Shown: in pieces, positions 2,271-60,984 of the stretch | How positions within the stretch are numbered: the first letter of the stretch is position 1 | How the letters are laid out: each line of letters opens with the position of its first letter | DNA from: Incurvaria masculella | Lineage: Eukaryota; Arthropoda; Insecta; Lepidoptera; Incurvariidae | Assembly (NCBI GenBank): GCA_946894095.1 | Contig: OX335657.1 | Coordinates: 14,756,001-14,820,000, forward strand | Direction of reading: 5' to 3' | DNA length: 64,000 nucleotides | Notes under the pieces: generated by a model | What the model was told of the DNA's origin: nothing | What the model saw: the letters and a program-made list of their open reading frames with translations, nothing else | The model's database searches: none | Translations under genes and position numbers: made by a program

Positions 2271-2429
2271 ATGGCGCTGCCGCTGCTGCTGCCGCGGCAC
2301 GAGTGGGACCGGCTGCGCGGCGCCGTGGACTCGAGCGAGGAGGCGCGGAGGGCGCAGAGAGCGCTCTACAGGGAGTATCTGGACCGAGCCAGCCACGTCA
2401 TGACCAGCTCCTGGCCTAACTCGATCGAG
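2271..2429 (+). CDS. CFAP210: CFAP210-like gene, exon 1 (residues 1-53)
   Basis: Starts at the ATG at 2271; an ATG 7 bp upstream is in another frame. Encodes LPRHEWDRLR followed by SWPNSIE, and ends at phase 0 before GTACGT. The same exon recurs in decayed form at 55,648-55,814, which supports both boundaries. Confidence 0.8.
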
Positions 2430-8400: not shown

Positions 8401-11400
8401 TAATGTAAAATTTTCTGAAATAAAGGCTTATTTTATTATTATTATCAAATTAAACAGACTATCAGAACGTGTGGCACGGGCTTTAAATCTGAAAGGTATT
8501 ATGTTCAGATGTAAAGTGTAAGTTGTATACTCACGATAAATATTAAATAGTTCGTAATAAAAGCGTTATTTTTCGGTAGTCGGGTTTTTAAACTTCGTCA
8601 TTAAAATCTGTATTGACTAGCCGTGTATATACATTGTTTCTGTATTGCCCGAGAATCTCCTGAAGCTGGTCGTTTTGCGAGGCCATCTCGACGTTAGATT
8701 AAAACTAGAAGCACTTAGATCCTTTCTACTTTATCAATCGCAATGTTATTGGTATCTTTAATGACTTAAAAATTTAAAATTTTCCAAAAAAACTTGATCG
8801 CAATGAATTCAAAATGATAATTACAAATGTATTTCAACGGCAAGTTTTTTCAAATCTAATGAGCTTGTACAAGTGATTATCGTCTTAATAATTGGAGAAC
8901 GTTTGTGACGCTATTATGGTATATTTATGTATATTATATATGGTCGGTATATTTTGTTTAACATTTACCTCATTTAAATCTTCACCATTGATGTTTAACC
9001 CGGCGCAGGAGAGGTTGGTTCCGACCAAGTTCGCACAGACCCATCGCTCGTTGGATGGGGCCGATCAAATCAATAAATGAATAAAAAATACAAATGTAAT
9101 GATGAAAATAATATGCGTTAATGTAGACTGACGAGATCCGAGAATACTAATTTGATGTGTCTTTATGACATGCGAGTGGAATGCTCGGTGGAATGCGAGA
9201 TCACGGTGATCCAATTATTCAATTTTACGTGACCTGATATGGATAGCTTACATAATAATAAGGAGAAAGCGGTTCTACTCTCGAAAATGAGAGTTCGGAG
9301 GTCTCTAGCTCAGAGACGGCCTTATAGGGTTTTTCCCAGGTAGAATATCCGTAAGGCTCTGTCTTGTATTTGTTTCTTTTTTAAATTTAATTGTTTTATT
9401 TAGGCCTGCAACCGTGGAACCAAATAAATATAGATGGTAATAATAAATGTATTCATTTCATACATTTGTTAAAAAATATATATGTACAGAATATGTTTTT
9501 TTTTTATGTGACTAGACATGGATGGCTAATACCACACCTTCTGTCATGGTATTAGCCTAACACACCACATGGGAACTAGGTGCCATGCCAGGACCTTCCT
9601 TATATTGCACGGCTACATTGAACTGGATGGAAAACACGGACAATTTTCATTGCCGCTTCGACCATCGTTCATCCAATGCGATGGTACCAACCCGGGCGGG
9701 ATTAACCCTACCACCTAGTAAGTAAGGAAGGGGACCTACAGTTTAACGTGGAATCCGAACCACGGCCAGCCTCTCTCAACGGTCACCCATCCAAGACCAG
9801 ACCGGACCCAGCGTTGCTTAACTTCGGAGAGCGATCACCGAAGTGTCGCGCCACTGGGCCACTGAGGCTGACAAACTATTTATAGGTTATTATAAAAGAT
9901 ACACTCAAACTCTCAAACCAAACCTACCGCCACTATACTTACGAATATATTCCCATTGAACATCACAAACACCCAAAGGTCGGCTGGAAGAAATCTCTTC
10001 CAGGGATAAGCCCGCCTTTGCACCCCTGTTATAGCACTGTACTTGTTTTTGTAAATTGTTTTTTGTGGCGTATTAAAGAACATTAAGAAACATTTCCAAA
10101 ATGATTACATAAGGTTGGCCTTATGCTCAAGGGCATCCTCTACCTAATAATATGTGAAGAGACAGAAATAATGTATTATTTAAATTTTTAAATAAAACCG
10201 ACTTGATAAATTGGAATAAACTTTGCAGTATAATATGTAAACTTACGTTCAAATATCTACACATTATATAAGAAAGGACAATGACCAAACTAAAAGCAGA
10301 AGCTAAGCTGTGAGTTGGACGTAATAAGAAAGTGGAACCGTGGTTTGAATTTGAAATGATTAAAAAATCTTTTTCCTGTTAATAGTTAGTTCTCGAAGAT
10401 CCGGGTTGTAAGAATAAGAATAAGACCTTTTGTTTGCCACAACACATAAGTACAAAAGAGTAATGAACATGAAAAAACTAAACTAAATTAAAAATACTTA
10501 AACATTGCATTCTCTTGGGTGGAACAAGAAAACGGTTGCATTTTGACTGCCAATTGTGCCAAGCGCACATCACATCACCGTACATACACGTGATCCTTCT
10601 TTATTTCGCAGCACGCTGTTGCATGAGTTTATCTAATAAATAAATAATGCAGAGATGGAAGTTGAATGGTCGAGTTTTCTGTCCATCTATGAATGAATGT
10701 GACTAACATTTTTTTTTATTTTGGCCTGGCAATTATGTACAGACTGCTGGCTTGATATAAATTATGCGATAAAAAAAGAGCTGACATTTATTGATACAAA
10801 TTTGTCGAAATACAAAAAACAGAACTGCGTTTTTATACTGAATTATATAGTGGCATGTCACCTAATTCCTTCGGGAATGTGGTATGTTGGGCTAATATCA
10901 TGACAATAGTTGTGTGCTATTAGCCACCCTTCTTCTTAGCGGCGGTAGTATATGCATTCATAAGAGTAATTAATTGTATTGTATTGTATTTCATTCCGTT
11001 AAAATCTTTCGTAACGGGCGGCGGCGCAAACACTGACCTAACCCCTATTGTCTCTCTCACAGAAGTCAGCCCCTCACCCCCCTCCCCCAGGCCAAATTAA
11101 GCGCCGCGAGTAAACTTCTAAAATCTGTGGTCTCTTACTATCTCTTTCTCTACGTGTCGGAGAGAACGTTTCACGCAGATTGGGATACATGAATAGGCCC
11201 GCATTCGCAGCGTGAAGCACATTTCAAACTCAGATAACGAATATAAAGGCGCATACCCTAGCTAGACTTATCCATGGTTTTCAACACCCCTTAGTAATAA
11301 AAGCCGCACCTACCTCGCCGTTCTCAGAACGTGAACAAGCGCAACGAGGAGGCGCGCCGCACGCTCGCGCGGGAGGCGAAGCAGGCGGACGAGCGCTTCT

Positions 11401-14400
11401 ACGCCGAGTACGTGCGCCGGCAGGGCGACGAGCGAGCGCGACTGATGGCGCGCGCGCGGGACCAACTCTTCCTTGACAAGGACGCGCCAAAGACGTTGCT
11501 CAGGTTCGCTGTATTATAGTATGTTCGCCGTCCCCAGAACGTGAACAAGCGCAACGCAACGCTGAGAAACGGAGCTGGCAGACGAGTGCTTCTACGCAGA
11601 CTACAGAGAGGCGGGAGAACACGAGCAAGAGCGCCTAATGGCATGCACGTGGGACCAATCATTTCTCAAAAAGAACACGTCGAAGTCTTTACTTAGGTTA
11701 GCTTTGGTTTAGTCAGTCTTGTAGTACGTTCAACTTTCCGAGAACGTGAACAAGCGCAACGGTGCGGCGTTGCACGCTCGCGCGGGAAGTGGAACAGGCG
11801 GACGAGCGCTTCTACGCAGAGTACGTGCGTCGGCAGGGCACGAGCGAGTGCGGCTGATGGCGCGCGCGTGGGATCGACTCTCTTGTTTCCAGAACGTGAA
11901 CAAGCGCCATTAACCCCCTTTTTTCGACGAAGACGTGTCAAAAACGCTGTTCAATTCAGAGTAGCGTCGCGCAGAACATGGAATCGTTGGCTAACATCAT
12001 ACCTGCATCGTAATATATTTGTAAGTGTCTACAGTTGTGCATGGGCTTTCCATTCCCAGTGCAGGTTTTCATTAAAATCAGTGACTTTGCATCTTCCTGG
12101 ATTAATTTTCATCTCAAACCTGAATTAATAACAGAATTATTGAACTCAAAATAATTTAAGAAGAATTAGTAACTTTATTAGTTGTAAGTAACTTAAACTG
12201 AGGGTTGCTGTTTCTATTGTTCTTTGTTCTTTGCCTTAATCTGTTCTGCCAAGGAATCGTTTGGCAGTAGCATTTAGATCTAAGTATGTATTTCATAATT
12301 GTGGACGGAAAAATATGTTATGTAAACCCGTGAAGTTTCTTTGCGGGTTCTTCTTTACTGGGTTGATCGAATCCGCGGATCTTTGTGACGTAACTTGGTG
12401 TAGTTTGACTACCAAAAAGTTTAAATAAATGAAATGATATGTTGTTCATGGACTTTTTTGTCGGCAGCGCTGTGATAGAGTGCACTACGCTGAAGGAAAG
12501 AGAGCTACAGCTTGACTTTCAGAACCAGTTGAAGAAGCAGGAGAATGAATGCAAGCGGAGGAACGACCAACACGTCTTAGGTAAGATATCTTGGCTTTGT
12601 TTACTATGACCGCTAATACATTAACTTACGAAATAAAATCAACTTATTTTTCGACTCACGAGACTTATTTTTAATTCCAAAATCTCGATGCAATTATTGT
12701 AGAAACGCATTTTTAAAACGTAGTTGTAAAATTTATAATGATAAATATGCAGATATAGATATTTTACTATGTTCTTTTTATCAACTTAAAAAACTAAGTT
12801 TAAAGATGTTGTGAAATACATATATTAAGCACTAAGGATTTTTTTTTCTTCTTTGTTTATCTATATATATATTTTTCATATTTGATGCATAATTTAGGGT
12901 TTTGTTTCTATTTAACTAGGTTTAGCTTTGAATATGTATAAACTTCTGTTATGATTATAATGTTTTTGTTTCCTAACTGTGTAATCTGTTTTGAAAATTG
13001 TTTTATTTTGAACTTTTGTTAATTTCGATTATTATTATTTTTAATGTTTGTCTTATGTTGAACGCCATCTTTATATGATATTATTTTTATGTGGAAATTT
13101 CATTGGTTCTATGTCATTTTCTTTATGCTCTTTTCTATGTTTATTTGTAAAACTGTATATTTCCCGAATAAAATAAAATGAATAAAAATAAATAAAATGA
13201 AATAAAATCGTAGAGAAGTCAAAAAAAATATTCGGGACGCGCAATTTCGAATATTCCTTGCACTAAATAGCGTCATGTAAAGTTCTCACGTAAGCAAACT
13301 CACTCGCCGGCGCTGGCGATTTTGTATGTTAAAGTGGCTACTCCTGTTTTCCGAAATACGCGTATCTAGAAATCAGCATTACGTATATGAGTGAGTATGA
13401 GTATTATTGAGTGAAAGGTTCCCCAGGCCCTGTATGCAGGCCGGAATTAACCACAGATAAACATACGTTTCTAAAAATATTTTTTGTAAAAAGATCTAAT
13501 ATTAATTATTTCTCACTCTCCTAATTATGCTTAAGGCGTCAGCAAAAAATATCAAATTTGTTACGCCGGATATTGCTTACATTGCATATTCTTACTAATG
13601 GTACGCCAGTATTTATTAGATATTCTTTGCTAATGGTGAGTAGGTACCAACATTCGTACGGAGGTTTGAACTCTACTGCCCACTCGAGGAACACTTATAT
13701 TTTATGAACAGTTTTAAAAACAAATTGGATCAATATAAAAAAACGAGAAACAATAAATAAAAACTAAACTTAAAAATAAAACTTTACTTGCAAAAATATG
13801 AATACAGTGCAAATAATAAAAATACACGCATCAGCTTGTAGTTGCTAGTGTATATAACATACAATAATAATAATAATTCATTTGTAACAGTAATTCAGCA
13901 CAGTCAATGCTGCCATTCAAAATGTTTTGCATAAATGTGAGCAGAGCAAGTGTCTTCTTTTGAAATAACTTAGATGGACAAGTATTATAAACGAAGTTTT
14001 TGCACAAATTCCAGTATTTCTCCGTGAATTAGGTACTCGGGACACCAAAATATACAACAATGTTTTTTTACTGATATCGGCATAATTATTTCATGGATGT
14101 TATTTGAGTTCCCTATACAAACTTTCATCCCCTATTACTCCTCTTCGAGTTTATTTTTCGCTACAAAAGTTAGCCGTTATGTCCTTCTCCAACGTCCAGT
14201 CTATCTCTATACCGAAATTCATCAAAAATTGTTTCAGCGATTTAGGCGTGAAAACCCAACAGCCAGATAGACAGTGTTACTTTCTAATTTATAATATTAA
14301 GGTGGGCCATCCCGCTCAACTCCCCATACAAACAGGGAAACAAGATCACGCCCATATTTCTTATCTGAGATCCCAAATTTAGCTCAAAATTACTTTATTT

Positions 14401-17400: not shown

Positions 17401-20400
17401 GGATACGATATTACTGCTATATCATAAATTTGAGTTTCAGCGACATCTACTTTTGAAGCATTGTCATCAGATTCGTCGGAAGCAGGATTCGAGCCTGCGG
17501 TATTTGGATTACATACCCACTGCTAAATCAACTGAGCTACCCTGACAATTACGTCAGCCAACGAATTTCTGGATTACAATTCGAATCGACACAATGCTTC
17601 CAAAAACGACTAAAAACTTTTTCAGATTATTTTCGAAATCTGATTGCAATGCTTCAAATGTAGATCTCGCTAAAAATCAAATTAATGAAATAACATTTGA
17701 TTTAAATAGGGTTATCATTTAAAATTTATTAAAAACCGGTTTGGGTGGCTGTACCGAAAAACCAAAAATGCTCAAAGCCAAATTCACCTCACTTTGCGAA
17801 ACAAGCCGAGTTCGACATTAATATAATCATATTAATTAAATATATAAATAATTACTCGAAACCCATCGATGTAACAAAGTAGCGCGCGACGATGTGACAA
17901 TAGAATATAGAATACCCCCCCCCCCCATCCGGGGCGCCGCCGCGCCGTCTATTGGCCGTTTGACACCCGTTATAATTAAATGTGTTTGAATGCATACGTT
18001 TTATTCAGCCCAAAATTACTAACGAACTGCGTACATAAGTACGCACACATATTTTTTCCTCGCCGCAAAGCAAAAAGTCTACTCATTCATTCAGAAACGG
18101 TCGGAGCGCGCGCGCATCAACGCGGACATCGAGCAGGCCGCGGCGGAGGTGGCGCGGCGCCAGCGCGAGGACGCCGAGCGGGAGGCCATGGACGAGAAGC
18201 TTCGCGGCGTGTACACGCGGTTCAGGGAGCGCGTCGACTGCCGGCGCAGGCGCACCGAGCACGAGGTACGCCGTCGTGGCCAGCGAGCGTGGAAGTACGG
18301 CAGTAGCGAGATTTTCTGACCGAACGACCCGGAAATTGAACGGGTCACTTCGTTGGCGTGGTCTATGCGACCCGGGGGCTACACTTAGAAGAAGAAAATA
18401 AGGTACGATCCGTTTCCTTTGACCTGTTCGTTCACGAACCGACCCGAGAACCGAGCCCACCGGTCGTGTGTCGATCCAGAGGTCTCATTCAGTCGGCCCG
18501 GCAGGGTCGGTGGAAAGTACGGGTCGCGAAGACAAGGAACTTTGCGAACGAGGGAGCCGTTCGGTCGTTCAGTACGGACGACCCGGGTCTTCTGACCCGT
18601 TCGTTCGCGAACGACCCATCGCTAGATCGTAACTCATTCGTCTCGCTGCAGCGCAGCCACTTCTTAGTGCAAAACATCTTACTTAAATTAATTCGCTTAC
18701 GATTTCGGGCTTGGCAACATCGAATGTCCGGTGCGCTAAATAATGATGAGGAAAAAGTAAGAAATATGATCGACGAAGAATCAGTCAATCACCTATCATT
18801 TACCAGAAATAAATGGTATTTGTCCGGTGTTTTAGGCCCGTTTACTTAACAATCTATAAATGTACAGGTCACCATCCTTTCTTTAAGGAAAAGTAGAGAA
18901 AACATAAATGTTTCACGGGTACAGATATGTTCCACCTCTCTCTAACTCGCGGTGGTGGTACTTGAATTCGACGTCTCACTCCCACACTCTGTTCGTCTTG
19001 TAAGCACAGCGCGCTGTGCTAGGTCTATGGTTGCAACTCGAGAAAATCAGGAGTTACCTAATTGGTAAGTGCACTGACTCATACAGACGAGTTTTGTTGA
19101 TACTACCGTCCTTCCATGCTCGCTGGTGGTCAATGCTGCGTGGGTTCCGGTACCTCAAAAAGAAAAGGGGGCCACTGTATTTCCTCCTACGACAGTAGGA
19201 GGCGATTAAGGGATTCGTTTAATGTTGTATGCGATTACTTTATAAGTTATTAATCAAGCAGTTGTACTTTCATGTAAGTCTTGCGTAGTTAGTGAGCTAG
19301 GTGCCATGCCAGGTCATTTCATATAATTCGCGGTTACAGTGATCTGGATGGAAAAAAGGGAAACATTTTATTGCGATGGCTTCATTTGTTGAAGTCATTA
19401 AATGTGATGGTGCCTACTCGTGCGGGATTAGTCCTACAACAAAATAATTAAGGAGGAGACCTACACTTTTACGAGGAATTCGAAACACGAACGGTAAATT
19501 CTTCGGTCGGGTCTTCCCTACCGGCCTTTTCTCAATCACTGAATTGGAAGAGGGCCCATTTCCTATAACTCAACTGGAAATCGGCCCATTCCCGCATTAG
19601 ACCGCAATGACTTCATTGCGACCACTGAATTTTCAAATGTTAGATATATGAGGATTTTAGAGAAGAGGATAGGCATTTATTACTTTCTTCCTATTTATAT
19701 TTGAATAGGAATGGAAAAAAAAAACATTTTTAATGTCACTATTCAGATACAAGAGGAAAGAATCCGAAATCTGGAAAAGATCGGCAACAAACTGGAGAAG
19801 GGCGCCGCGACGCGCGACGCACAAGAACAGAACATTCTGGATAAGGCTGTTCGCGAGTTACGCGAGAGGTTGGTATTCCATTCGGCCGATATCGACCGTG
19901 TTTAAGGCGCCAAAATACGCCTTATGGCAAAGGGCGATAGTTGGGCAAATCTGGCATGCGGGACCAATACGTACGGAATTCAAAGAACGGATTGGCATGG
20001 CTTTCTGATAACATGCATGGGTTACAATTTGACGATGACATTTGACGAATTTGACAATTTGAAATATGACGAAGCTAAGCCCCGATTGCACGAAGAGACG
20101 GCTGAGTTAATCAATGTTCAAACACGTCACTTTTAGTGAACCGCATAGAGTTCCTTCCATACTGTCCATACAAAGTGACGTGTTTAATCATACGTGGACG
20201 TTGATTTTGATTTTTTGTCGTTTCGTGCACTCGGCCCTAAGTATTCTTGATCATTTCCATATGGCTCTATGTTACATACATTCCAAGATAAAGTATTAAG
20301 ATTAATACGGTCTTCTTTGGTTTTCCAATGGCCTAGCTGAAACAAAACAAACATACAAAATAGATTTTACCACATACAATAGCATCCATTCTCGAAAAAG

Positions 20401-23400
20401 CTGGTTGCCATACGAGGAACATTCCCAAGATTTTAGATTTTCTATGTAACTGGACATGGACGGCTAATACCAACACCCACTGTCATGACGATGATATCGG
20501 GTGCCATGCCAGGGCCACCCATTAGGAGCAGGGCTACATTGAAATGGATGAAAAGCATGGCTATCATATCCAAAATCCTTGCAACATTCCATGAATCCTA
20601 CAATTCTGCATCGAACATGCGGGAAACAGGCCTTTGGACTGATTTTGACCATCTTTCGTTTAGTTTTTATCAACCGAATGTGATCGCGTTTAGTCCTTAA
20701 ACTTTTAGGCCGGTAGGACCTATATTTATAAATGGAGGATCAAAGGGTTTCGCATTCAAAATTTAATAGACATTTTAAAGTCAAAATATATCGGTTTTCA
20801 TGTGACTGGACATGAATGCCTAATACCACACCTACTGTCATGATGTTAGCCTCGTGATGAATTGGTGTCATGCCAGGACGTTCCTTTTATTGCACAGCTA
20901 CATTGAACTGGGTGGCAAACACGGTCAATTTTCATTGGCGCTTCGACCATCGTTCGAATGCGATGGTACCAACAGGCACGTATCCAGGGGGGGGATAGTT
21001 GGGATTTATCCCCCCCCCCCCCGAAATCTGACTGAAAACAAAAACGTAAACGTGACAAAAGATATGTAAAAAAATACTTATATAATCTTTATGTAAAATT
21101 CTTATATATAAATATAAAATACTTATAAGTGTGTGACTTAACTACGGACGGTACTTCTTTAAGTTATTAAAAATTATAGTACAGTAATTACAGCGATTTT
21201 TACACAGTTCACATGGTTGTTTCAATGTTTGTCCCCCCCCCCCCCCGAACCAAAAGTCTGGATACGGGATTAACCTTACTACCTAGTAAGTAAGGAAGGA
21301 AGGGGAACCTACAGTTTAACGTGACGAATGACGAATTCCTTTCTTACGACATGGGCGGGATGAAATTAGTGGACCCAATTGTATTTTTTTACGTGCCGGA
21401 ACCCACACAGAATGTGATGTACAGGGAGGATGCTCGCATGCTGGCGGACCTTCGAAAGGACGAAGCAATATTCAAGGATCGTCAGGAACAGCGACGCAAG
21501 TTCCTCGAGGACGAGAAGCAGAGGCAAGAAGACGAGTCCGCCATGCGATCTTGGAGCATGCTCAATAGGTATTTTTTATGTTATATGGCTACATAGAATA
21601 CAATTAAAAACCGGCCAAGTGAGTGCGAGTGGGACTCGCACACGAAGGGTTCCGTACCATCGTACAAGATTTAACACAAAAAATCACGTTTTTTGTATGG
21701 GATCCCCTTTTAATTTCTTTTTTTTACCTATTTTTTGTTATAGCGGCAAAATAAATACACACTCTGTGAAAATTTCAGCTGCTTACCTATTACGGTTCAT
21801 GAGATACAGCCCTGTGAAAGACGGACGGACGGACAGCGGAGGCTTAGTAATAGGGTTCCCTTTTCACCCTTTGGGTACGGAACCCTAAAAAACGAACAAT
21901 GGAAAGATTTCTGGCCCTGACACAAAAACATGTATTCTTGTTGTTTTTGTGCTTCGGGCTTGTTTCCGCTCTAAGACGGCAATTCTATACCATTTTACGT
22001 GTCAAGAAGCTCTAACAGCTGTCACCTCAGCCAGCAAAGCTCTTCCACGAAGCACAGCTTTTTGGACTCATCCACACAGGTCCGGATCATCCATAAGGCA
22101 GTGTAGGGAGCCCCGTATCAGATATTTACTCCTTCATAGGAAAACATTTTTTCAAAGATTGGATTAAACAATTCGGATAATTGTGGGCCCCGAGAATAAT
22201 TGCATTATCTAGGGACCCCAAAATCCGGCTTTGTCCACACTTCCTGGGCAGTTTCTGTGGTTTGAAGGAACTGGAGCCGTATGTTAGCCACTCCTGGACA
22301 ATCAATAGTTCACGACCTTAAGAGCTCGGTGGAGTTTATGTCGGCGCAATATGATGAAATGAAGCGAGAAATTACCAAGAAGCTATCCGAAGTCGAAGAA
22401 TTACGTCGAGAGAATCTTCAGCTACGGGAATCGGTCCAGGATCTCAGCAGCAGGCTATCCCAGATTGAACAGAAATCTCGAGAATGCAATCTCGAGATCC
22501 AGTGCGTGCCCGAGCACTCGTCAGAAAATCTCCCGAACCTGATTATCCAACTAGGCAATGTAGTATCGTGCCCTCTCGAAGACAAAGATGTCATGTCCTG
22601 CTCCAGAATCTCCAAAGTCAATGTGACGTCGAGCCGGCCGCGCTCCGTCATCTGCACGCTGTCATCGCCGCGCAAGAGAGACAGCATGCTTGCGGCCTGC
22701 ATTAAATTTAATAAGAATAATCAGACGGACAAGCTGAACTCCACACACCTCGGTATAGGCGGTGAAAAGAAACCAGTTTATGTCGCAGAACACTTGTCCC
22801 CGACCAACAGGGCTTTGAACGCTCAGGCAAGAATCCTGAAAAAAGAGTGTCAATTCAAATTCCTGTGGGTCAGAAATGGACGTGTGCTGTTGCGTAAAGA
22901 AGAGTCCTCGCCAGCGATATGGGTAAAAAATACGGATGTTATATCCAAATTGCGTAATTCTAAGTGATTCATTTATTGATGCTGGATGTTTGTATATTGT
23001 ATAAACCATTTAATGTATCCCTTTAGAATATACTATCAGAATGTAAGAAGCATCCGTGGTAAATTAGATAATCTTTTTCTAAACAGTCAAATATCTCATT
23101 ACGATATAATTATATTCACTGAAACGTGGTTGAATGAAGGCATTTTTGATAGCGAAATTTTAAACAGTAGATACCAAATATTTCGTCGGGATCGCTGTTC
23201 TACGGCGAGCGGCAAGCGCGATGGAGGGGGGGTATTAGTAGCAGTGTCGTCTAACTTGCATGCGACGAGACGTAACTCTTTTGAGAGCGATCTTGAAGAT
23301 CTCTGGGTTACTGTTACACTAAAATTAAGCAATGTATCGAAACACTTGCACATCTGCGGTCTATACCTACCCCCGCCGTTAACGCCGCTGCGATTAGAGC

Positions 23401-26400: not shown

Positions 26401-29400
26401 CTGTTATTGGGTCTGCACACTGTTATATTTAATATGTGATGTATAAACGTAAATGTAAATGTGTCAACCTGTTGGCAAACCTTTATAAATAAATAAATAA
26501 ATCTATGATAACGTGAGCGGCTGTCTGTTCCTCCTTCGTGCAAACTCTACAGAGGGAGCTGTCGGTGACTCCTAGAGTGAACAGATGTTCGTTTAGTGGA
26601 CAATACCCTCTAAAAATACCCCAGTGCGTGGCTTTCTTCTGCTTAAGTGAAGACGTCTTCGCGAGAGACGCGGTTCCTAAACATGTAAAATTAGCAGAAA
26701 AATCGTCATTTCAAGTTTGTTAGATAGTTTTGCAGTAGTTCTAGCTTTCGTAATTCTAGATCATCTTATTCTGTATCATTTTTTAGTGATTACTTTTTAG
26801 ATTAAAAAACACTGAGGTCACGAAAGCGTTTGAGAAGAATCAGCGCGATAACAACTGGCAACGCACGCTCCAGCACAGGCAAGATCTTCTTAAACTAAAG
26901 GTGAGGTTGTTATCAGCTAGAACACCTTTCTTTGGACCTTAGATTGTGTTCTTATACTCAAGAACTTGATACCTAAATGCTTTCACTAAAAAATCATGGA
27001 GTTTGATGATCATTCAATCTTGCGACGTACTTACAAAGCAATGAATATCCTATTTTCGGTGTTCAGACACTGGACCTGTTTTTCTTTTCAAATTCCTTTA
27101 TTATTATATTACTTGCCTCATAAACCTCAGTAGATTTCGAAATAAAGGTAAATAGCATAGTTTTGAGTGTATTAATATTTTGGAATAACGATGCTTAGAA
27201 TTATAATATTTAGTTTGACGGCTTACCGCGCGTGTGAGGAGCAGGACGTGCTGCTCAGTAACGTAACAGTAACCTACCTCCGTCGCGACAGGCACGTTCT
27301 GCTGAAGATGGAGCCCAGGTGAGGCTCCGAAACGTCGGGCAGCACATCCTGCGCGGTAAGCCGTCAAACTTAATATTATTGTTATGTCCCGCGTAAGTTT
27401 TAAAATATTAAGATGCTTAGAACTGTCACTGTGTTGATGTAGAATTCAATATCAAATTAAATTTCCAAACAGAAGGAACGAGATGACCGGGAAGCAAGCG
27501 AGCTGGCAGCTAAACGTTACTTCTATGGGGAGTTAGCAGGTAAGAACCTCAATTTTTTTTTTTTAAAATCGGTGCAGTAGAAAAACAGTTACTGGTAGGA
27601 AAACTAGGGACCAACCTTAACGACCAGGGCCTTCGATAGCTTGGTAGCAGCGCGTGGACAGTGAGACGCCGCCTCGTAGGATCCTCTCGTCGCCAACCAC
27701 TCACGAAACACTCTTCTCGGCTTCCAGCCTTGATGAGGAATAGTTCTATCACTTTGCGGTTACGTAGCGCATAATGGTAAAAAAGGTTTTGTGTGGAGAG
27801 CTCTTCTCGTGCGCGTGCCCGGACACCGTTGCAAAGTCTCTGTTCGTGGACGCGTCGGCGCGCGTCTCCGTGGTCGATGTGCTGCTCTCCTCTCTCTTGA
27901 CGCGGGTGAGCGGGAAGGAACGTGTACTGATGAGTGTGTATATGTTTGCGAGTGCTCGCTGTCCCGCCAAATATAACGGCGGCTAATTTCGAATAGTGGG
28001 TGTCAAAATGGCCCAAACAGTTACTAGTGAAGCTTTATTAGTAATTTGATGAGACGGAACGGAAACTAGGGCATACCATACAATCCTAGGTTTTTTATTA
28101 TGTAATTGGACATGCTTAGATCACACCTACTGTTTTGATATTATTGAAATACACCACCGCACTATTTGCGGGAACTATTTTCAATGCCAGGATCGGAACA
28201 GCTACATCGAAGTGAAAACGCGGATAATCTTAATGGACGTCTTGACCATCCGTTATTCAATTCGATATGGTCCCAATCCGGGCGGGATTGACCCTATAAC
28301 TTGCTAAGCAAGGATGTTTTACATGGAATCCGAACCACGGTCGAACTGTTCCCTATCCGAAAACCGACGGCGTCATGGAAGCTAACCTCGATAATTTAAT
28401 TAATCTTTGTCAAAGCCTTAAGCACGTATGAACAGTGACTTGCTTATTTTGAGAGTGAAACTCTAGCTATCGATTCGCCGCTCTAGGTCAGGTGTGATTT
28501 TTAGGATAATCCAGCCCTATTGAATTATTTTTAAATGTTTAGTTTAAAGGTGTTCCTAGGGTAGGAAACATAATGCATAGCTATTTGACCTTACATTTTA
28601 AACTCTATTCCATTAATATTGGAAAAAAAACATTGAGAAGGTTTCGTGGTTGGGCATAACTTACATAACAGGATTTGTTTCTATTATCGAAATTATTATT
28701 CTATTATCAGTGGAGACGGATTTAAGAGACAGACCCGCTGCTTTCGATCAAAAGTATTCATAAACGTTTTTATTCAGTCGTGTAAAACGTTACCATTAAT
28801 CAGAAATATTTTCTCATCAACCCGTTTCTAATTAATGTTATATTTTTTTATTCTAAACATTAAACACTTAAGAAAACAATTTTTACAACTCAACAATATA
28901 GACTAAGGAAGTCATAACAAAAATGGGAACGATAACTTAAGGTTGAACTTCCCGGCGGGACTAACTCATTCGCGGGCACGGTACAAAACCGTGTTATTGC
29001 TCTCTGGAACCTTCTCTGTTTCAAAGAAAAAGACAGGCTCCGTAATGAGGACGATGAGGACATGCCCACAAAGCATACAATGCGCATAGTGTTTGATTTG
29101 GTAAGATTTACGAAAAATTTAATTACAAAACGACTTTTAGCTAAAAGTAAACAACGACCGCTGCTGTAGTCAAAAATCAAACAACAACCAAATTGATTAT
29201 AAATTTTCATAAAACAAGCTATGTCTGATGACTAATCTTTTTAAGATGTTTTTTATTTTATCGTTGAGTAATCCACCTACAAAGTTATTGTATAAAACGC
29301 GCGAAAAATTCGAAAGTTTCGAACCCTTTAACTTGGAAAGCAAAAACAATTTTAAAATGCCAATAGTTCCCAGACATCTAGTTCGATCAAATAAAGCTAT

Positions 29401-30197
29401 TTTGACTATCATTTTGGATCTTTGACAAGAAATATGGGAATATTATTTTCTCGATTGTATGGGGAGTTGAGCGGGAAGGCCATGTCACCATACGATTGTG
29501 GGATTTGGCCTGTAGCTGTGTAGCCTAAGTGGCCTGAAAGCTCTTATATTTTCGAATATCAGTGAGGATACAGGTTGGCATTGCGCTCTATGGTAATGTG
29601 ATATGTGATGTGTGCAGAGCGTCGCTTGCACGAGGCCGACACCAAGGTTTTGCGGCACGCGCAGGTGTTGAGAGAAGAGGCGCACGCTGCCGGTCAGCCC
29701 ACGCACCCGCTCGACCGGGCCGTGCAGGTACCGTACAGTCCACTATGTGATGTGTGATGTATACAGAGCGCCGCTTGCACGAGGCCGACACCAAGGTGTT
29801 GCGGCACGCGCAGGTGTTGAGAGAGGAGGCGCACGCTGCCGGTCAGCCCACGCACCCGCTCGACCGGGCCGTGCAGGTATTGTACAGTCCACTATGTGAT
29901 GTGTGATGTATACAGAGCGCCGCTTGCACGAGGCCGACGTGATGTGCACAGATGCGATAGCATTTCAACACATGACATGACAATTCTCTTTCCTCTTCTC
30001 TTCTTTGGTCGCGCTTCATGGCACTTCTGGCTTAGTTGATGTTCTCAGGTTGACTCCGTTCTTCCCAGGCGTACGGGCGCAAGTACCGGCTGTATCCGGA
30101 GAGACCGCTGCCCGCTCCGCTGCAGCAACACTACCCGGATTACGCGCCCGCCGACCGCATGACGCTCGGAGCCGAGCCGACAGCCGAGACGCGCTGA
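2271..30197 (+). CDS. CFAP210: CFAP210 (CCDC173)-like coiled-coil axonemal protein, 12 exons, 500 aa
   Basis: Exons: 2271-2429, 11328-11503, 12468-12580, 14885-14975, 16814-16934, 18095-18265, 19747-19868, 21425-21568, 26801-26900, 27473-27539, 29618-29727 (or duplicate 29767-29876), 30069-30197. All introns are GT-AG, phases agree at every junction, and the join is 1,503 nt with one terminal TGA. The product is rich in Arg/Glu/Lys/Ala and almost wholly helical, with no membrane segment or signal peptide. Hallmarks are LPRHEWDRLR near residues 8-17, SWPNSIE at 47-53, LKERE near 120, a long charged helix to about residue 420, and a C-terminal AGQPTHPLDRAVQ segment. These match, as I recall the family, the layout of CFAP210/CCDC173, a TPH-type microtubule inner protein of ciliary doublets; human CFAP210 is about 550 aa. 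In an insect the likely site of action is the sperm tail (inference). Another TPH-family protein (CFAP45, MNS1, CFAP53) is the alternative. The gene model is firmer than the name. Confidence 0.82.
2451..3099. mobile_element. Three head-to-tail MITEs sharing ends
   Basis: Units begin near 2451, 2671 and 2903. The terminal AGGGCTGATTTTTCAATAG is mirrored by GATTGAAAAATCGGCCCT. Successive units share a TTAGTGC junction, so they form a tandem array in intron 1, only 21 bp after the exon 1 donor. Units ~200-230 bp; the third is shortened. Confidence 0.75.
3746..3990. repeat. 102 bp tandem repeat in intron 1
   Basis: GTCGCAATTTACGGATATTC starts at 3746 and 3848, and a variant at 3950, giving a 102 bp period. 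Degenerate related sequence (CATCACAAATTAC motifs) extends back to about 3,530. Confidence 0.85.
4014..5557. mobile_element. 1.54 kb element with perfect 30 bp inverted ends and TA duplication
   Basis: 4014-4043 and 5528-5557 are exact reverse complements (ATGTTTTGAAAACTTACGGT, then TTTCCGGTGT). TA flanks both outer ends, the Tc1/mariner-type target. No transposase frame is seen inside, so it is non-autonomous. It contains a block CCGACATGTTTCGCCTCCCA near 4,060 that recurs in lepidopteran repeats, and a SINE fragment at 4,627-4,860. Confidence 0.75.
4627..4860 (-). mobile_element. SINE body fragment (5S-SINE family)
   Basis: Reads TGACATGGATGGTTAATACC, AGGTGCCATGCCAGGACCTT, CATTGCCGCTTCGACCATC, the tail and body blocks of the full SINE; the 5S head is degenerate. 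Confidence 0.7.
5876..6092 (-). mobile_element. SINE body fragment (5S-SINE family)
   Basis: Blocks TGTGACTGGACATGGATGGC, CGATGGTACCAACCTGGGCG and CACCTAGTAAGTAAGGAAGG; head missing. Confidence 0.7.
6100..8160. other. Intron 1 interior, mostly unassigned
   Basis: AT-rich intronic DNA with no exon-like GC block; only the inverted repeat at 7,430-7,562 stands out. Confidence 0.35.
7430..7562. repeat. Inverted repeat, possible small MITE
   Basis: AGCGGGAGCACAAAC at 7,434 and GTTTGTGCTCCCGCT near 7,546 are exact complements ~110 bp apart. Confidence 0.6.
8165..8455 (+). mobile_element. RTE-like LINE, 3' end fragment
   Basis: The + strand frame reads RWEDEIRAEVGIIWTRTTRD, then RTAWKSLEEAFANKGQ and NAIDVDYVN-stop at about 8,383, the typical C-terminus of insect RTE-type or related LINE polyproteins. 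It is followed by an AATAAAGG-containing tail ending in TTATTATTATT. The rest of the element is missing. Confidence 0.7.
9497..9870 (-). mobile_element. 5S rRNA-derived SINE, full length
   Basis: In SINE sense the head (9,780-9,869) reads AGTTAAGCAACGCTGGGTCC, then TCTTGGATGGGTGACC, matching the internal promoter of animal 5S rRNA. The body continues through GGCGGGATTAACCC-type sequence (complement) to a tail ATGTCTAGTCACAT plus A-run, seen as poly-T at 9,495-9,505. Probably transcribed by RNA polymerase III and mobilised by a LINE (known for 5S SINEs). Confidence 0.85.
9966..10090 (+). mobile_element. LINE 3' UTR fragment
   Basis: Contains GGCTGGAAGAAATCTCTTCC followed by AGGGATAAGCCCGCCTTTGC, a block I recognise as recurrent at the 3' ends of lepidopteran LINEs. 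No coding sequence remains. Confidence 0.45.
10852..10932 (+). mobile_element. SINE tail fragment
   Basis: GGGAATGTGGTATGTTGGGC and TGTGCTATTAGCCACCC correspond to the SINE 3' end. Confidence 0.5.
11328..11503 (+). CDS. CFAP210: CFAP210-like gene, exon 2 (residues 54-111)
   Basis: Follows the acceptor TTCTCAG and begins NVNKRNEEARR; ends AG before a weak donor GTTCGC (phase 2). The very high GC content contrasts with the flanking introns. Degenerate tandem copies of this exon follow at about 11,538 and 11,743. Confidence 0.8.
11538..11696 (+). pseudogene. Decayed tandem copy 1 of exon 2
   Basis: Starts with the same acceptor-like CCCCAG and AACGTGAACAAGCGCAAC as exon 2 and ends CTTAG|GTTA, but is 159 bp instead of 176 with several indels, so the exon 2 frame is lost. 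It lies 210 bp downstream of the real exon, as a tandem duplicate. Confidence 0.75.
11743..11959 (+). pseudogene. Decayed tandem copy 2 of exon 2 with a nested partial copy
   Basis: Begins AACGTGAACAAGCGCAACGG and keeps GCGGACGAGCGCTTCTACGC, but indels break the frame. A further exon start, AACGTGAACAAGCGC with its AG, is inserted at 11,893-11,907. The ending at 11,930-11,959 still resembles the exon 2 tail (compare GACAAGGACGCGCC). Confidence 0.65.
12468..12580 (+). CDS. CFAP210: CFAP210-like gene, exon 3 (residues 112-149)
   Basis: Acceptor TCGGCAG; completes a Ser codon, then AVIECTTLKERELQLDFQNQ. The LKERE segment matches the conserved LKEREAQ-like stretch I associate with CFAP210. Donor GTAAGA. 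The paralogous exon at 59,996-60,108 has exactly the same length (113 bp). Confidence 0.82.
12581..14296. other. Intron 3, mostly unassigned
   Basis: AT-rich. Contains an AATAAAATGAATAAAA-type tail near 13,170-13,210 (possible retroelement end) and TAATAATAATAATA at 13,865. No coding block. Confidence 0.3.
14297..14821. mobile_element. MITE of the TTAAGGTGGGCC family, copy 1
   Basis: Bounded by TTAAGGTGGGCC and its imperfect complement GGGCCACCTTAA, with TTAA at both ends; 525 bp, no coding capacity. Related copies lie at 28,937-29,490 and 48,905-49,317 in the opposite orientation. It ends 63 bp before exon 4, so it supplies sequence immediately upstream of that exon's acceptor region. Confidence 0.75.
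14885..14975 (+). CDS. CFAP210: CFAP210-like gene, exon 4 (residues 150-179)
   Basis: Encodes DEAKRWLDEKNKKARARF and following residues; enters at phase 1 and leaves at phase 2 with a consensus donor GTAAGT. The paralogous exon at 60,219-60,308 aligns along its whole length. Confidence 0.8.
15366..16242. mobile_element. Inverted-end element (AGAGACCAACCCTCTGATGC family)
   Basis: Left AGAGACCAACCCTCTGATGC then TAAATATGTCGGTCTGCC; right GGCAGACCGACACAATTAGC then TTCAGAGGGTTGGT. It holds a SINE fragment, so it is longer than the 53.5 kb copy; the outermost left end is degraded. Confidence 0.65.
15964..16100 (+). mobile_element. SINE tail fragment inside a larger inverted-end element
   Basis: GTTTTCCATCCAGTTCAATG, GGCATAGCACCTAGTTCCCA and AGCCATCCATGTCCAGTTAC match the SINE 3' half. 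It sits within the 15,366-16,242 element. Confidence 0.7.
16415..16580 (+). mobile_element. MITE with TTAGGGCCGAGTGCACGAA ends
   Basis: ~165 bp; the left TTAGGGCCGAGTGCACGAAA mirrors the right CTTCGTGCAACCGGGGCTTA. It contains an inner inverted AAACACGTCACTTT / AAAAGTGACGTGTTT. Inverted copy at 20,075-20,241. Confidence 0.75.
16814..16934 (+). CDS. CFAP210: CFAP210-like gene, exon 5 (residues 180-220)
   Basis: Acceptor TTCACAG; encodes IKERSERIRQERDEEIRLEQ and onward to FEQRF; donor GTGAGT at phase 0. This is the best conserved exon in the downstream pseudogene (60,427-60,547, same 121 bp length, no lesion). Confidence 0.85.
17090..17312 (+). mobile_element. LINE-type 3' tail
   Basis: T-rich 3' UTR-like sequence ending in AATAAATAAATAAAAAATAA and further TAAA units at 17,269-17,308, the mark of a 5'-truncated retrotransposon insertion. 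No coding part is left. Confidence 0.4.
17420..17705. mobile_element. MITE with ~38 bp inverted ends enclosing a tRNA-like segment
   Basis: Left arm AATTTGAGTTTCAGCGACAT then CTACTTTTGAAGCATTG; the right arm at 17,648-17,690 is the imperfect complement. Between them, 17,474-17,546 (- strand) reads GTCAGGGTAGCTCAGTTGAT and GCAGGCTCGAATCCTGCTTC, resembling tRNA boxes A and B. A shorter relative is at 31,200-31,330. Confidence 0.65.
18095..18265 (+). CDS. CFAP210: CFAP210-like gene, exon 6 (residues 221-277)
   Basis: 171 bp, 57 codons, phase 0 at both ends, donor GTACGC. Begins KRSERARINADIEQ and ends RRRRTEHE. Strongly GC-rich third positions set it apart from the AT-rich introns. Confidence 0.82.
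19290..19490 (-). mobile_element. SINE body fragment
   Basis: Diverged copy: AGGTGCCATGCCAGGTCATT, GATCTGGATGGAAAA, GTGCGGGATTAGTCCTAC. Confidence 0.55.
19747..19868 (+). CDS. CFAP210: CFAP210-like gene, exon 7 (residues 278-317)
   Basis: Acceptor TATTCAG, starts IQEERIRNLEKIGNKLEK, ends ELRE plus AG before donor GTTGGT (phase 2). Pure charged helix. Confidence 0.8.
20075..20241 (-). mobile_element. MITE with TTAGGGCCGAGTGCACGAA ends, second copy
   Basis: Reverse complement of the 16.4 kb copy, with CTAAGCCCCGATTGCACGAA at the left and TTTCGTGCACTCGGCCCTAA at the right. Confidence 0.75.
20440..20560 (-). mobile_element. SINE tail fragment
   Basis: TGTAACTGGACATGGACGGC, CCACTGTCATGACGATG and GGTGCCATGCCAGGGCCACC match the SINE 3' third. 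Confidence 0.6.
20797..21325 (-). mobile_element. SINE body interrupted by a nested insertion
   Basis: Runs from CATGTGACTGGACATGAATG, breaks at 20,973, and resumes at 21,267 with GGATTAACCTTACTACCTAG and on to AGTTTAACGTG. The nested piece is described separately. Confidence 0.75.
20974..21266. mobile_element. ~293 bp insertion with CGTATCCAG ends and G/C runs
   Basis: Left end GCACGTATCCAGGGGGGGG, right end CCCCGAACCAAAAGTCTGGA then TACG. The 9 bp CGTATCCAG is inverted at the two ends, each with a homopolymer G/C run. It splits the SINE cleanly, giving its borders. Confidence 0.65.
21425..21568 (+). CDS. CFAP210: CFAP210-like gene, exon 8 (residues 318-365)
   Basis: Uses the acceptor TGTACAG; using the CACAG upstream would give an immediate stop. 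Encodes EDARMLADLRKDEAIF through RSWSMLN; donor GTATTT, phase 2. Intron 8 downstream carries a complete-looking LINE. Confidence 0.8.
   Translation, partial: GGCSHAGGPSKGRSNIQGSSGTATQVPRGREAEARRRVRHAILEHAQ
21608..21892 (+). repeat. Lepidopteran ~285 bp dispersed repeat
   Basis: Full-length copy from ACCGGCCAAGTGAGTGCGAG to GGTACGGAACCCTAAAAAA in intron 8, just 5' of the LINE. Confidence 0.88.
22281..22967 (+). CDS. LINE ORF1 protein with coiled coil and FP-like C-terminus
   Basis: 228 aa, possibly 5'-truncated because the family usually has a longer N-terminus. Residues ~25-75 form a coiled coil rich in Glu/Arg/Leu. The C-terminal part contains VYVAEHLSPTNRAL, FLWVRNGRVLLRKEE and SPAIWVKNTDV, which resemble the FP (few-polyhedra) domain shared by baculoviral FP proteins and ORF1 proteins of insect LINEs. 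Its presumed role is binding the element RNA. The ORF stops 16 bp before the next ORF's start. Confidence 0.75.
   Translation: MLATPGQSIVHDLKSSVEFMSAQYDEMKREITKKLSEVEELRRENLQLRESVQDLSSRLSQIEQKSRECNLEIQCVPEHSSENLPNLIIQLGNVVSCPLEDKDVMSCSRISKVNVTSSRPRSVICTLSSPRKRDSMLAACIKFNKNNQTDKLNSTHLGIGGEKKPVYVAEHLSPTNRALNAQARILKKECQFKFLWVRNGRVLLRKEESSPAIWVKNTDVISKLRNSK
22986..25949 (+). CDS. LINE ORF2: AP-endonuclease and reverse transcriptase
   Basis: 987 aa, intact. The N-terminal endonuclease has YYQNVRSIRGKLDNL, FTETWLN, LVIGDFNL and LDLILYNN (residues ~10-240). Reverse transcriptase motifs include GAGPDGIPS, NYRPISILS, YTDISKAFDRVDH (near residue 617), SGVPQGSHLGPIFF, and the catalytic FADD near residue 705. 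There is no RNase H domain. The usual SDHHP at the endonuclease end is replaced by a VDNFHPPI stretch. The enzyme nicks DNA and primes reverse transcription at the target site. It belongs to the CR1/Jockey superfamily by motif style; the exact clade is unresolved. Confidence 0.92.
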   Translation: MFVYCINHLMYPFRIYYQNVRSIRGKLDNLFLNSQISHYDIIIFTETWLNEGIFDSEILNSRYQIFRRDRCSTASGKRDGGGVLVAVSSNLHATRRNSFESDLEDLWVTVTLKLSNVSKHLHICGLYLPPPLTPLRLEQQLDNISNAMSSLGTQDVLVIGDFNLRQITWSLNSPSDTNSTSTTPSHFDCNMGHTLVDFMSLNNFQQFNYLKNYEGKILDLILYNNSIIKCISPEVILSNVDNFHPPIEMHLQFSLTKYLKNNFLNKFNFRKADYSSINNEIDKLEWQTLLPVASTVDEMLKIFYSHLDHIIEKHVPKIKYSRSCYPPWYTNGLIKLIKEKNKFHRKYLKYKNPLDQIDFEYARSRCHSAIKKCYRTYQINVENSLTNNKNIKMFWSYLKSKRNNKSNIPSEMYLLDSKAATPSTICELFANQFQSVYQNNNQIVKSTNSQPSHLNFTNNFTNSNNFSTIGTMSISLKTVKTTLKKLDKNKGAGPDGIPSLFVTNCANSLAVPIHIIFNKSLVCGIFPYQWKQAHVIPIPKNGDPCNVQNYRPISILSVFAKAFEAIICPIITDHFKHILIPQQHGFRTKMSTLSNLMCFHSDLCEALDDSKQVDTIYTDISKAFDRVDHQILLRKLNEYGIHGNLLEWLCSYLNGRRQKVVACGHESRYFYATSGVPQGSHLGPIFFSVFINDISKVIFNCKFLMFADDLKIYKIINNISDALMLQEDIERIYNWCLENRLDLNLSKCKHIKFTRKRVPVQSRYSIKDVYLDEVDHIRDLGVIFDTKLTFRIHYDHIIKKSFKMLGFIYRNCKEFKHAASKITVYNSLVRSNLEYCSSVWTPYFNNHVDRIERVQKRFLYFQTIHDKKMYLHRSYTDRLRHYKVDSLFGRRNLADQMLLYKIVNGQLECPELLNKIYFQVPRPTTRLGKYNPFWLRRYKSTLGYNHNIARLCRKYNELFKLHTLDLFSCNAKKYKLLIKEIIFAHEP
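26510..26680 (-). mobile_element. LINE ORF2 C-terminal fragment
   Basis: On the - strand it reads KKATHWGIFRGYCPLNEHL, then GVTDSSLCRVCTKEEQTAAH, the cysteine/histidine segment found at the ends of many insect LINE polyproteins. Only this fragment remains; it abuts the 3' tail of the LINE at 22.2-26.5 kb. Confidence 0.7.
26801..26900 (+). CDS. CFAP210: CFAP210-like gene, exon 9 (residues 366-399)
   Basis: Acceptor TACTTTTTAG; completes an Arg codon, then LKNTEVTKAFEKNQRDNNWQ and onward to LLKLK; donor GTGAGG, phase 0. Confidence 0.8.
27199..27383. mobile_element. Foldback element in intron 9
   Basis: GTTTGACGGCTTACCGCGC at 27,213 is exactly mirrored by GCGCGGTAAGCCGTCAAAC ending at 27,369, with AT-rich arms extending further. 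The core GGTGAGGCTCCGAAACGTCG resembles a block in other lepidopteran repeats. Confidence 0.75.
27473..27539 (+). CDS. CFAP210: CFAP210-like gene, exon 10 (residues 400-421)
   Basis: Shortest exon, 67 bp: KERDDREASELAAKRYFYGE then LA; acceptor CCAAACAG, donor GTAAGA. Leaves at phase 1, which fits either copy of exon 11. Confidence 0.78.
28088..28360 (-). mobile_element. SINE body fragment (5S-SINE family)
   Basis: Diverged: TGTAATTGGACATGCTTAGA, CCGGGCGGGATTGACCCTAT and ACATGGAATCCGAACCACGG. Confidence 0.6.
28937..29490. mobile_element. MITE of the TTAAGGTGGGCC family, copy 2
   Basis: Shares with 14,297-14,821 (inverted) the blocks GAACCTTCTCTG, AAAGACAGGCTCCG, TTGTATAAAACGCGCGAAAA and CATCTAGTTCGATCAAATAA. 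It sits in intron 10, upstream of exon 11. Confidence 0.75.
29618..29727 (+). CDS. CFAP210: CFAP210-like gene, exon 11 copy a (residues 422-458)
   Basis: 110 bp, enters at phase 1 and leaves at phase 0: ERRLHEADTKVLRHAQVL and onward to THPLDRAVQ. Acceptor TGTGCAG, donor GTACCG. A second copy 149 bp downstream encodes the same residues. Confidence 0.8.
29767..29876 (+). CDS. CFAP210: CFAP210-like gene, exon 11 copy b (duplicate, same peptide)
   Basis: Same length and phases as copy a and the same 37 residues, with only synonymous differences; acceptor TATACAG, donor GTATTG. Because the exon is 110 bp, using both copies would break the frame, so only one can be included per transcript. It could be an alternative to copy a or an unused duplicate. 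Confidence 0.7.
29916..29938 (+). pseudogene. Truncated third copy of exon 11
   Basis: Starts after the same TATACAG as copy b, again 149 bp further on, but breaks off after GAGGCCGAC. It is the remnant end of the 149 bp tandem duplication. Confidence 0.8.
30069..30197 (+). CDS. CFAP210: CFAP210-like gene, exon 12 (residues 459-500, stop)
   Basis: Acceptor TTCCCAG, starts AYGRKYRLYPERPLPAPLQQ and ends EPTAETR-TGA. Proline-rich, non-helical tail. No canonical AATAAA was found in the next ~250 bp; ATTAAA occurs near 30,418. Confidence 0.8.
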   Translation, partial: AYGRKYRLYPERPLPAPLQQHYPDYAPADRMTLGAEPTAETR

Positions 30198-33671: not shown

Positions 33672-33682
33672 ATCCCCCCCAC

Positions 33683-55620: not shown

Positions 55621-56191
55621 ACTGACCTATCGGGGTCCTGCGTGAAGATGCCGCCGAAGCCGCTGCTGCTGGCGCGCGGCGGGTGGGAGCGGCTGCGCTG
55701 TGAGTGCGGCGACGGCGGCGACGCGGCGGTGACGGCGCAGGCGCGCCGCGTGCGCCGTCTGGACGACGCCAGAGCGCCGCCGTCATGACGCGGCTCTGGC
55801 CCAACTCTCTGGAGGTGAGGCCGCCTCCGCCTATGCTTCCTCAACGACGACGGTTGATATGAATTTAGAACGTACACCTGAATGATTTAGATTATTCATA
55901 GATGTCATTATGGTGATCAAGATGTTGCTCTTCACCAATGTATACATAAGGTTCTTTGTGAGCATTAGTAATCAATCAATCACTGTAAACAAGTTTGTAT
56001 GTATCACTGAAAAAAAAATACAATAACAACCTGGCAACGTTTCTTGTCGTCGCCAGAAGTAATCGAACCGACAGAAAAAAAATTACGAATCCAAGTGTGT
56101 AATTACTGGAGGAAATAAAAAACTGAAACTGTAGACAAGCCTAAGGCTCTGCCTATTTTTTTCTTGGTCTTCCCCAGCATTTCTTCCAGCT

Positions 56192-57729: not shown

Positions 57730-57775
57730 GAAAAGCTTCTACCTAAATTAACATTATTAATTGTGTACGTCCGAT

Positions 57776-58407: not shown

Positions 58408-58735
58408 AAATTCCAAATGGAAGATAGCCATCCAAATATAATGTCTGAGCTGTTTAGTCCGATGAAATGTTTTATTGAAAAGGTAAAATAATGATGCGAT
58501 TATCTCCCAGAACATGAACCGACGGCACGAGGAGGCGCGGGCGGCGCCCGCGCAGCTCGCGAAGGCCTCGGACGAGCGCTTCTATGCGGAGTACGTGCGG
58601 GCGCGTCGCACGGAGCGGACGCGCATGCTGTCTCGCGCGCGCGACCGCTTCTTCCGCGCCCAAAACCATCCTTAGGTTCGTTGATTATTGTCTGCTTATT
58701 GAACTTTGAAAATATGGAATGTTACATGTATGTAT

Positions 58736-59576: not shown

Positions 59577-60984
59577 ACTTACCCTTTGCTTGTTTTCTTT
59601 ATACTATATTGATATTACATAAAAGGACATTAATAAAAAATTAAAGGCCTAAATTATGAATTTTTCCATGTTTTAAAATACATAGTTCGTGATTCCAGAA
59701 CCAAATTAAATCCAACCGTTCGCCTTGAAAATGTTGCTTTACTTTGGACCCTCTGCTCCTGAAAGTCCAATATGCTTTCACCTTCAATTGAAGTGCTGAC
59801 TCTTCTCTTCCCGCAGCATATTGTCTGACTTCTCGCAACCGGCTGCGTAACGTAATCCGATCGGCGAATTTCCGCAGCTATCGATGATAAAGCGGTCGTA
59901 TTACTTGCTGGCAAACTGGTTGAAGGGGGGAGTTTGTTTCCTTGGGGCAGATCTTTGTTTTCCTTGCGATACTCTTTTGTTTACATTGTCTGCAGAGCGT
60001 TTACAGAGTGCGCGACGTTGAAGGAGCGGGAACAGCAGGTCGTTTTTCAAAAACAACTCAAAAACGAAAAGGAAGAGCTCAAGCGCGAAAATGATAGCTA
60101 AGCTCTAGGTTCGTCCTAAATAGATTCATTTATATTTTCATTTTGGCTATTGAATAGATATTCCTGAAACGTGAATCTGCTTCTCGCTTGGTTTTATTAT
60201 AATTCCGGGAACGGGAAGAAGGTCTAAACTTTTCCACGAAGATAATAAGAAAAGGTCACGAAATCGACTTCTCGCGAATAAGGAGCATCAACAGATCATA
60301 ACGAGCCAGTGAGTATTGTACTTATTTCTGTGACGCTATTCACATCGGTAAAGTGTGTCTGCCGAATTTCGTGTGATTTACCCCTTTACGCGCGACGGTT
60401 GTGAAAATCGCTGAGGTTTTCATTAGAATGCGGGAGAGCTCGGAGCGTGCCCGAATGGAGAGGGATGAGAATCTGTGTCTGGAGCAGATAGACAACGAGA
60501 AATCCCGAAAGCAGGCAGCCGAAATAAAACGTTTTGAGGACAATTTCGTTAGTACTTTTTACCAATAGTCCTAGGAAATATATTTGGAATAAAGCCTCTT
60601 CTTTGTTCGGTAATATTGCCAGAATTTGTTAAGCTGTTTATCATGGAAATAACACTTTACAAAAGGGCAAAACGTTTGAATGCGCACGAAACCGCTGAGG
60701 TGATTGTTTACGCGAAAATAAGCACTACCATTGTTTTGTTCTAAAACCTAAAAAAACTTACATTCTTGTCTCGTGACCTCGATAAAATATATCGGATATG
60801 CAGCAGTGTGCTGCATGTGGTGATATCCAGTGAAGTTTCTTAGCGGTTCCTTCTTCACTGAGTTGATCGAACCAGCGGATCGACCAAGAACCCCGCACAA
60901 ATCGTATGGGAATTGGCTCCCGGTCAAATTGGCTGAAACTGTCAACTGTCTATATCATCTTTTGGCCATCAGTTTTGAACTCAG

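Follow-up and report, generated by a model that had tools for sequence, protein, structure and literature searches.

CFAP210 (CCDC173/FAP210) has been described as belonging to the filaments that line the B-tubule on its inner wall, and as having a 48-nm period and an N-terminal elbow (PMC10663601); in another account it is counted among the core filamentous inner proteins and contributes to establishing the 48-nm period (PMC7617938). The latter account names CFAP45, CFAP127, and CFAP210 as filamentous and describes the C-terminus of CFAP210 as bound by CFAP106B in trypanosomatids (PMC7617938). Searches of the open-licence literature for insect CFAP210, Drosophila CCDC173, and cryo-EM of lepidopteran sperm doublets returned nothing on insect CFAP210. 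The available main texts on Pieris sperm (PMC13060016), Galleria testis (PMC11288676), and Culex sperm (PMC9934393) contain neither "CFAP" nor "trichohyalin", and the available portions of PMC10973386 and PMC10425847 mention neither CFAP210 nor CCDC173; the Galleria testis text reports Ccdc63 paralogues enriched in one or other sperm type (PMC11288676).

The locus reported here most likely holds a known kind of gene, in a copy that is unusually divergent, has one exon duplicated, and lies beside a broken twin. We analyzed 64,000 nucleotides of the Incurvaria masculella genome (552,006,686 bases in 31 contigs), C17:14756001-14820000, hereafter the window, in which the gene, termed gene A, spans 2271-30197 on the plus strand. 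Exon 1 (2271..2429) contains the start codon and encodes aa 1-53 with the landmarks EWDRLR and SWPNSIE, exon 2 (11328..11503) encodes aa 54-111, and exon 3 (12468..12580) encodes aa 112-149 with LKERE. These are followed by exons 4 (14885..14975), 5 (16814..16934), 6 (18095..18265), 7 (19747..19868), 8 (21425..21568), 9 (26801..26900), and 10 (27473..27539), the first copy of exon 11 (29618..29727; aa 422-458), and exon 12 with the stop codon (30069..30197). All exons were placed by their join, together with alignment to relatives for exons 2 and 12 and repeat analysis for exon 11.

A preliminary description of this DNA had proposed a 12-exon gene with a 500-codon join, short exons, and long introns, and this structure was borne out. 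The exons join into 1503 nt (500 codons plus stop) with GT-AG in all 11 introns, consistent phases, and a single terminal stop; the longest exon measures 176 bp and the introns range from 341 to 8898 bp. The openness of the join is not trivial, since slightly shifted exon borders give an out-of-frame join, and it lies far beyond chance because the product, assembled before any homologue had been seen, matches lepidopteran proteins over nearly its full length. Gene A is a real, intact lepidopteran protein gene. To call it "hidden", as had been done, was an overstatement, its orthologues being gene models in dozens of Lepidoptera.

A protein database search with the gene A product matched at least 13 lepidopteran proteins (E 8.5e-104 to 2.9e-82, identity 38-44%, coverage 91-100%), a lower bound on the number of homologues from the 7995 candidates sharing most words that were scored. 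The same proteins, at least 13, were among the matches listed in a profile search of the database (E up to 1; 7992 candidates scored), and none of the matches listed came from outside Lepidoptera. When the query was restricted to the first 135 residues of the Ostrinia protein, all 48 matches (E up to 10, query included) were lepidopteran, 20 of them labelled trichohyalin or trichohyalin-like, two golgin-like, one vicilin-like, and 25 uncharacterized, hypothetical, or unnamed. Homology to this lepidopteran "trichohyalin-like" family, which includes Ostrinia furnacalis P0001, Bombyx mori P0028, and Plutella xylostella P0039 and has motifs in common with the gene A product, is colinear over the whole protein at 38-45% identity. 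Five relatives used as single tblastn queries recovered 11 of the 12 exons (E up to 0.05), exon 9 being missed. Most simply, gene A would be the one-to-one orthologue of this family, which is found in dozens of moths and butterflies.

The exon junctions were compared with 37 of 49 relatives, the remaining 12 being truncated, duplicate, or repeat-bearing models. At 10 of the 11 junctions none of the 592 alignment cells within 8 residues either side was a gap; at the eleventh, one relative (P0018) has an 8-residue insert that reads like a retained intron. Three of the omitted relatives show breaks at exon borders or close to them: the end of exon 1 is missing from P0012, and inserts precede exon 10 in P0008 and follow exon 11 in P0009. 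In the 38 aligned rows the residues E11, W48, P49, N50, and S51 of the gene A product are invariant or nearly so. The product keeps 53 of the 63 residues that are invariant in the 37 relatives, the lowest share of the 38 rows. It starts two codons earlier than its relatives and lacks the Cys-containing C-terminal tail that many of them have; a motif scan of the window found no such tail in another exon. The two Arctia plantaginis proteins (P0006 and P0032), from contigs that differ in length, group together, which may reflect a lineage-specific duplication or different assemblies.

The preliminary description had also called the gene CFAP210-like. This reading is supported, not proven: homology beyond composition emerged from shuffled controls and a profile comparison, and the E-values against the PDB, between 0.085 and 0.5 for CFAP210-type chains, are not significant. 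Against Pfam TPH (PF13868) the gene A product scored E 2.6e-5 at 23.3 bits, under the 27-bit cut-off, and 10 of 14 family members matched this domain (E up to 0.01). Its PDB search (E up to 1) returned the unrelated NRC3 (E 0.18) and then bovine CFAP210 (7rro_o, E 0.22). A 14-sequence profile (E up to 10) gave human CFAP210 (E 0.19), the unrelated A339 (E 0.28), and bovine CFAP210 (E 0.5), and a 38-sequence profile at the same threshold gave the sea urchin chain 8snb_3N alone (E 0.085); the Plutella protein P0039 as a single query found no match in the PDB. CFAP210-type chains were the only TPH proteins reached in these searches (E up to 1 or 10), and the bovine, human, and sea urchin matches are each colinear over about 450 residues. 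We take the urchin chain to be CFAP210 because a PDB search with its matched stretch (E up to 10) returned, besides itself, six CFAP210/FAP210 chains and one further TPH protein, 9d5n_B.

The weak E-values are due in part to a large bias correction for charged helices (65-95 bits), and CFAP210 was therefore compared with shuffled versions of itself. Scored without bias correction against a profile of the 37 relatives, with the row from the window left out, bovine CFAP210 reached 96.0 bits and urchin CFAP210 97.2 bits, against means of 41-56 bits and a largest single value of 86.0 for shuffled sequences (100 for each species and setting, shuffling being done over the whole length or within windows of 7, 14, or 28 residues; z 5.1-10.7). 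The reversed sequences scored 59.4 (bovine) and 49.3 bits (urchin), so that real CFAP210 exceeded each of the 100 shuffles per setting and both reversals. The gene A product alone gave z 6.1-10.6. In hhalign the lepidopteran profile matched CFAP210 with a probability of 96.4% (E 1.1e-9, 290 columns), covering about residues 6-318 of the gene A product and leaving its C-terminal third outside. These controls and the profile-profile comparison make a chance similarity of charged helices unlikely, and we conclude that the lepidopteran family is homologous to CFAP210.

Near full-length colinear homology was thus found to CFAP210 over other solved TPH proteins, with nonsignificant E-values and with profile support for the first two thirds of the gene A product. 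CFAP210 (bovine 7rro_o, human 7ung_o, sea urchin 8snb_3N) has the EW.R start, the W.N motif, and the KER..Q motif as in the gene A product, as well as a common C-terminal landmark before the final segment; identity between the two is low, and homology emerges from profiles and shuffles without a significant single-sequence E-value. The landmarks EWDRLR and SWPNSIE, pointed out in the preliminary description, are real, being conserved in the 38 rows, in a stretch that has NEWERIR and KHWTNT as its aligned counterparts in bovine CFAP210.

An AlphaFold model of the Ostrinia relative P0001 (12 sequences) is weak (pLDDT 73.7, pTM 0.22). It has short helices at residues 7-17, 24-44, and 51-97 and long helices at 105-291 and 298-444, the latter of 187 and 147 residues, which together (334 residues) would measure about 50 nm at 0.15 nm per residue. 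A Foldseek search of this model against the PDB found no related fold, its one match being unrelated (E 7.9); the model is of low quality, and not much fold signal is to be expected from bare long helices. The gene A product would most likely be a filamentous microtubule inner protein, with short N-terminal helices followed by some 330 residues of near-continuous helix (about 50 nm). The rod would lie in the groove between B-tubule protofilaments of the sperm axoneme, where it would recur at intervals of 48 nm and take part in setting this period. We infer testis expression, a position in the doublet, and this function for the gene A product; the earlier designation as "probably a sperm-tail gene" likewise follows from family membership. 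The comparison suggests a likely functional name for a lepidopteran family that is labelled "trichohyalin-like" or left unnamed in databases and, if correct, would place a conserved inner-microtubule filament in the sperm of moths and butterflies, which come in two types.

The preliminary description had included neither a duplicate of exon 11, nor relics of exon 2, nor a tandem twin of the gene, all of which we identified in the window. Exon 11 lies within a 149-bp tandem array of 2.3 copies. The second copy (29767..29876, plus strand), 110 nt long, encodes the same peptide between its own splice sites after a 39-nt spacer, and a partial third repeat unit follows at 29894..29938 (plus strand). 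Copies 1 and 2 differ at three exonic positions, all synonymous, and at five more in the flanks. Spliced in series by the standard sites they shift the frame; by way of a second AG in the acceptor of copy 2 the join stays open. At 39 nt, however, the spacer is probably below the size needed for an intron. In the available descriptions of tandem duplicated, mutually exclusive exons, adjacent copies are of the same length and their joint use by standard sites shifts the frame, as at exon 11. Unlike such exons, the copies in gene A share one peptide, so that the same protein results whichever is spliced in and the choice gives no new isoform; we therefore rejected the copies as a source of protein diversity at gene A.

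Internal repeats with at least 14 identical residues are present in the predicted proteins of five of the 49 relatives. In three of these five, Mythimna separata (P0009), Cydia strobilella (P0046), and Cydia fagiglandana (P0047), the repeat spans the stretch encoded by exon 11, with a deviation of no more than two residues where it starts; four of the 49 (P0017, P0029, P0040, and P0045) stop short of exon 11, so that such a repeat could not be seen in them. Since these sequences are gene predictions, their repeats attest genomic arrays, not proteins. Other stretches are repeated in Phthorimaea (P0040, residues 238-283, the exon 6 region) and Choristoneura (P0008, residues 399-432, exon 10 and part of 11), and exon duplication may thus extend beyond exon 11. 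One could imagine that in lepidopteran CFAP210 the exon for the C-terminal end of the rod, exon 11, is a recurrent hotspot of tandem duplication whose peptide is kept by selection. The copies could be used as alternatives or added in frame via the second AG; such an addition would make the rod 36 residues longer and change its 48-nm register, perhaps with a difference between the two types of lepidopteran sperm. We regard this scenario as distinctly improbable; if the arrays were used, they would offer a natural experiment on the part that rod length and end docking play in determining the period within doublet microtubules.

Exon 2 is followed on the plus strand by three relics of itself in tandem, all with approximate ends: two degenerate copies at 11538..11694 (relic B; tblastn identity 49% over part) and 11743..11880 (relic C), and a fragmentary copy at 11893..11957 (relic D). 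Searching the gene A product back on the window also revealed a broken second gene, gene B, with relics of exons 1-5 at 55648-60547 (plus strand; tblastn). Its frame is broken inside exon 1 (55648..55814) and near the end of exon 2 (58511..58675), exon 3 (59996..60108) contains an in-frame stop, exon 4 (60222..60309) has an approximate start, and exon 5 (60427..60547) is open. Exons 6-11 of gene B were found neither in the window nor on the plus strand of the next 20 kb, in which there were two weak minus-strand matches (E 0.13 and 3.1). Beyond the window, at L009:5464-5547, lies an exon-12-like piece that is open to its own stop and, as in gene A, lacks the Cys-containing tail. Over the 180 residues compared, genes A and B are 52% identical, each being 34-45% identical to the relatives; the two group as a single clade (support 100/99.6). 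A 952-aa open frame at 61141-63999 (minus strand), which runs off the end of the window just after exon 5 of gene B, is by eye a second LINE reverse transcriptase.

All 18 matches of the gene A product in the genome (E up to 1) fall inside the window, and the nine matches of the Ostrinia protein (E up to 10) are all in genes A and B. These searches miss weak exons, as exon 12 of gene B was found by a separate search only, and the Ostrinia protein misses exons 3, 4, 5, 9, and 12 of gene A, so that a heavily degraded copy might go unnoticed. One conserved to the degree seen in other Lepidoptera should have shown. The idea of such a conserved copy elsewhere in the genome, with gene A a fast paralogue, was unsupported, the Ostrinia protein finding no loci besides genes A and B (E up to 10); the simplest reading is that gene A is the orthologue and not a fast side copy. 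Its relatives are mostly 55-70% identical among themselves (46-52% for Aricia), and gene A forms a long end branch of 2.71, ten times the tree's median of 0.27. Relaxed constraint could contribute to this length. When a tree built with 19 of the 37 relatives was constrained to keep these 19 as one group, the constraint was not rejected (p-AU 0.27), and the branch may reflect either acceleration or a deep-branching lineage.

Taken as a whole, gene A is a real and intact lepidopteran gene, very probably the orthologue of a family that by homology is the lepidopteran CFAP210, and its product is likely a filamentous microtubule inner protein. If it were instead a lepidopteran coiled-coil protein without an axonemal role, as the "trichohyalin-like" label would suggest, it would fit with the exclusively lepidopteran matches of the Ostrinia query and their labels, and with the tendency of composition to inflate coiled-coil similarity. 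CFAP210 nevertheless scores above every shuffled and reversed control and is matched by hhalign at the E-value given above, and we consider such a protein very unlikely. Nor do we favor another filamentous TPH-type doublet protein in place of CFAP210. CFAP45, MNS1/CFAP127, and CFAP53 are also long charged helices, and even the best PDB E-values are weak. Against them, the CFAP210 match is colinear nearly end to end, with EW.R, W.N, and the C-terminal stretch before the last exon, and the PDB searches (E up to 1 or 10) reached none of the three. Their difference from the gene A product is judged by that absence, and likewise no better match to another TPH protein, which would have changed the name given in the preliminary description, arose there, CFAP45 and MNS1 again being judged by absence. 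Identity with one of these proteins is highly unlikely.

With regard to the state of the gene, its very long branch, the exon-2 relics and exon-11 repeats inside it, the lowest count of invariant residues kept among the 38 rows, and the already broken gene B would all be expected if gene A were itself becoming a pseudogene. An incipient pseudogene is, however, difficult to reconcile with 500 open codons, intact splice sites, and the 53 invariant residues that are kept; moreover, no other intact copy was found in the genome, and within the exon the exon-11 copies differ only synonymously. We therefore hold decay of gene A to be extremely unlikely and retain the reading of an intact CFAP210 orthologue.

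The window also contains several mobile or repetitive elements. Intron 8 of gene A harbors a LINE-type element (22266-25949, plus strand) with a 233-aa ORF matching Baculo_FP_2nd and a 989-aa ORF with endonuclease and reverse transcriptase domains. A Gypsy-type LTR element was recognized by eye at about 33275-38386 (minus strand), with a gag-like ORF (36844-38031) and a long pol-like ORF; the former scored 23.3 bits against Pfam gag, just under the cut-off of 24.1, and the element is probably a recent insertion because the 95-aa and 93-aa frames of its flanking repeats are identical. A dispersed repeat, "...ccggccaagt...gacggacggac...ggaaccctaaaa", was seen by eye on both strands at about 405-700, 855-1000, 21600-21890, 32767-33126, and 57429-57720. 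In intron 5, an Rfam tRNA match of 33.3 bits at 17474-17546 (minus strand), where ARAGORN called no tRNA, is possibly a tRNA relic or a tRNA-derived repeat.
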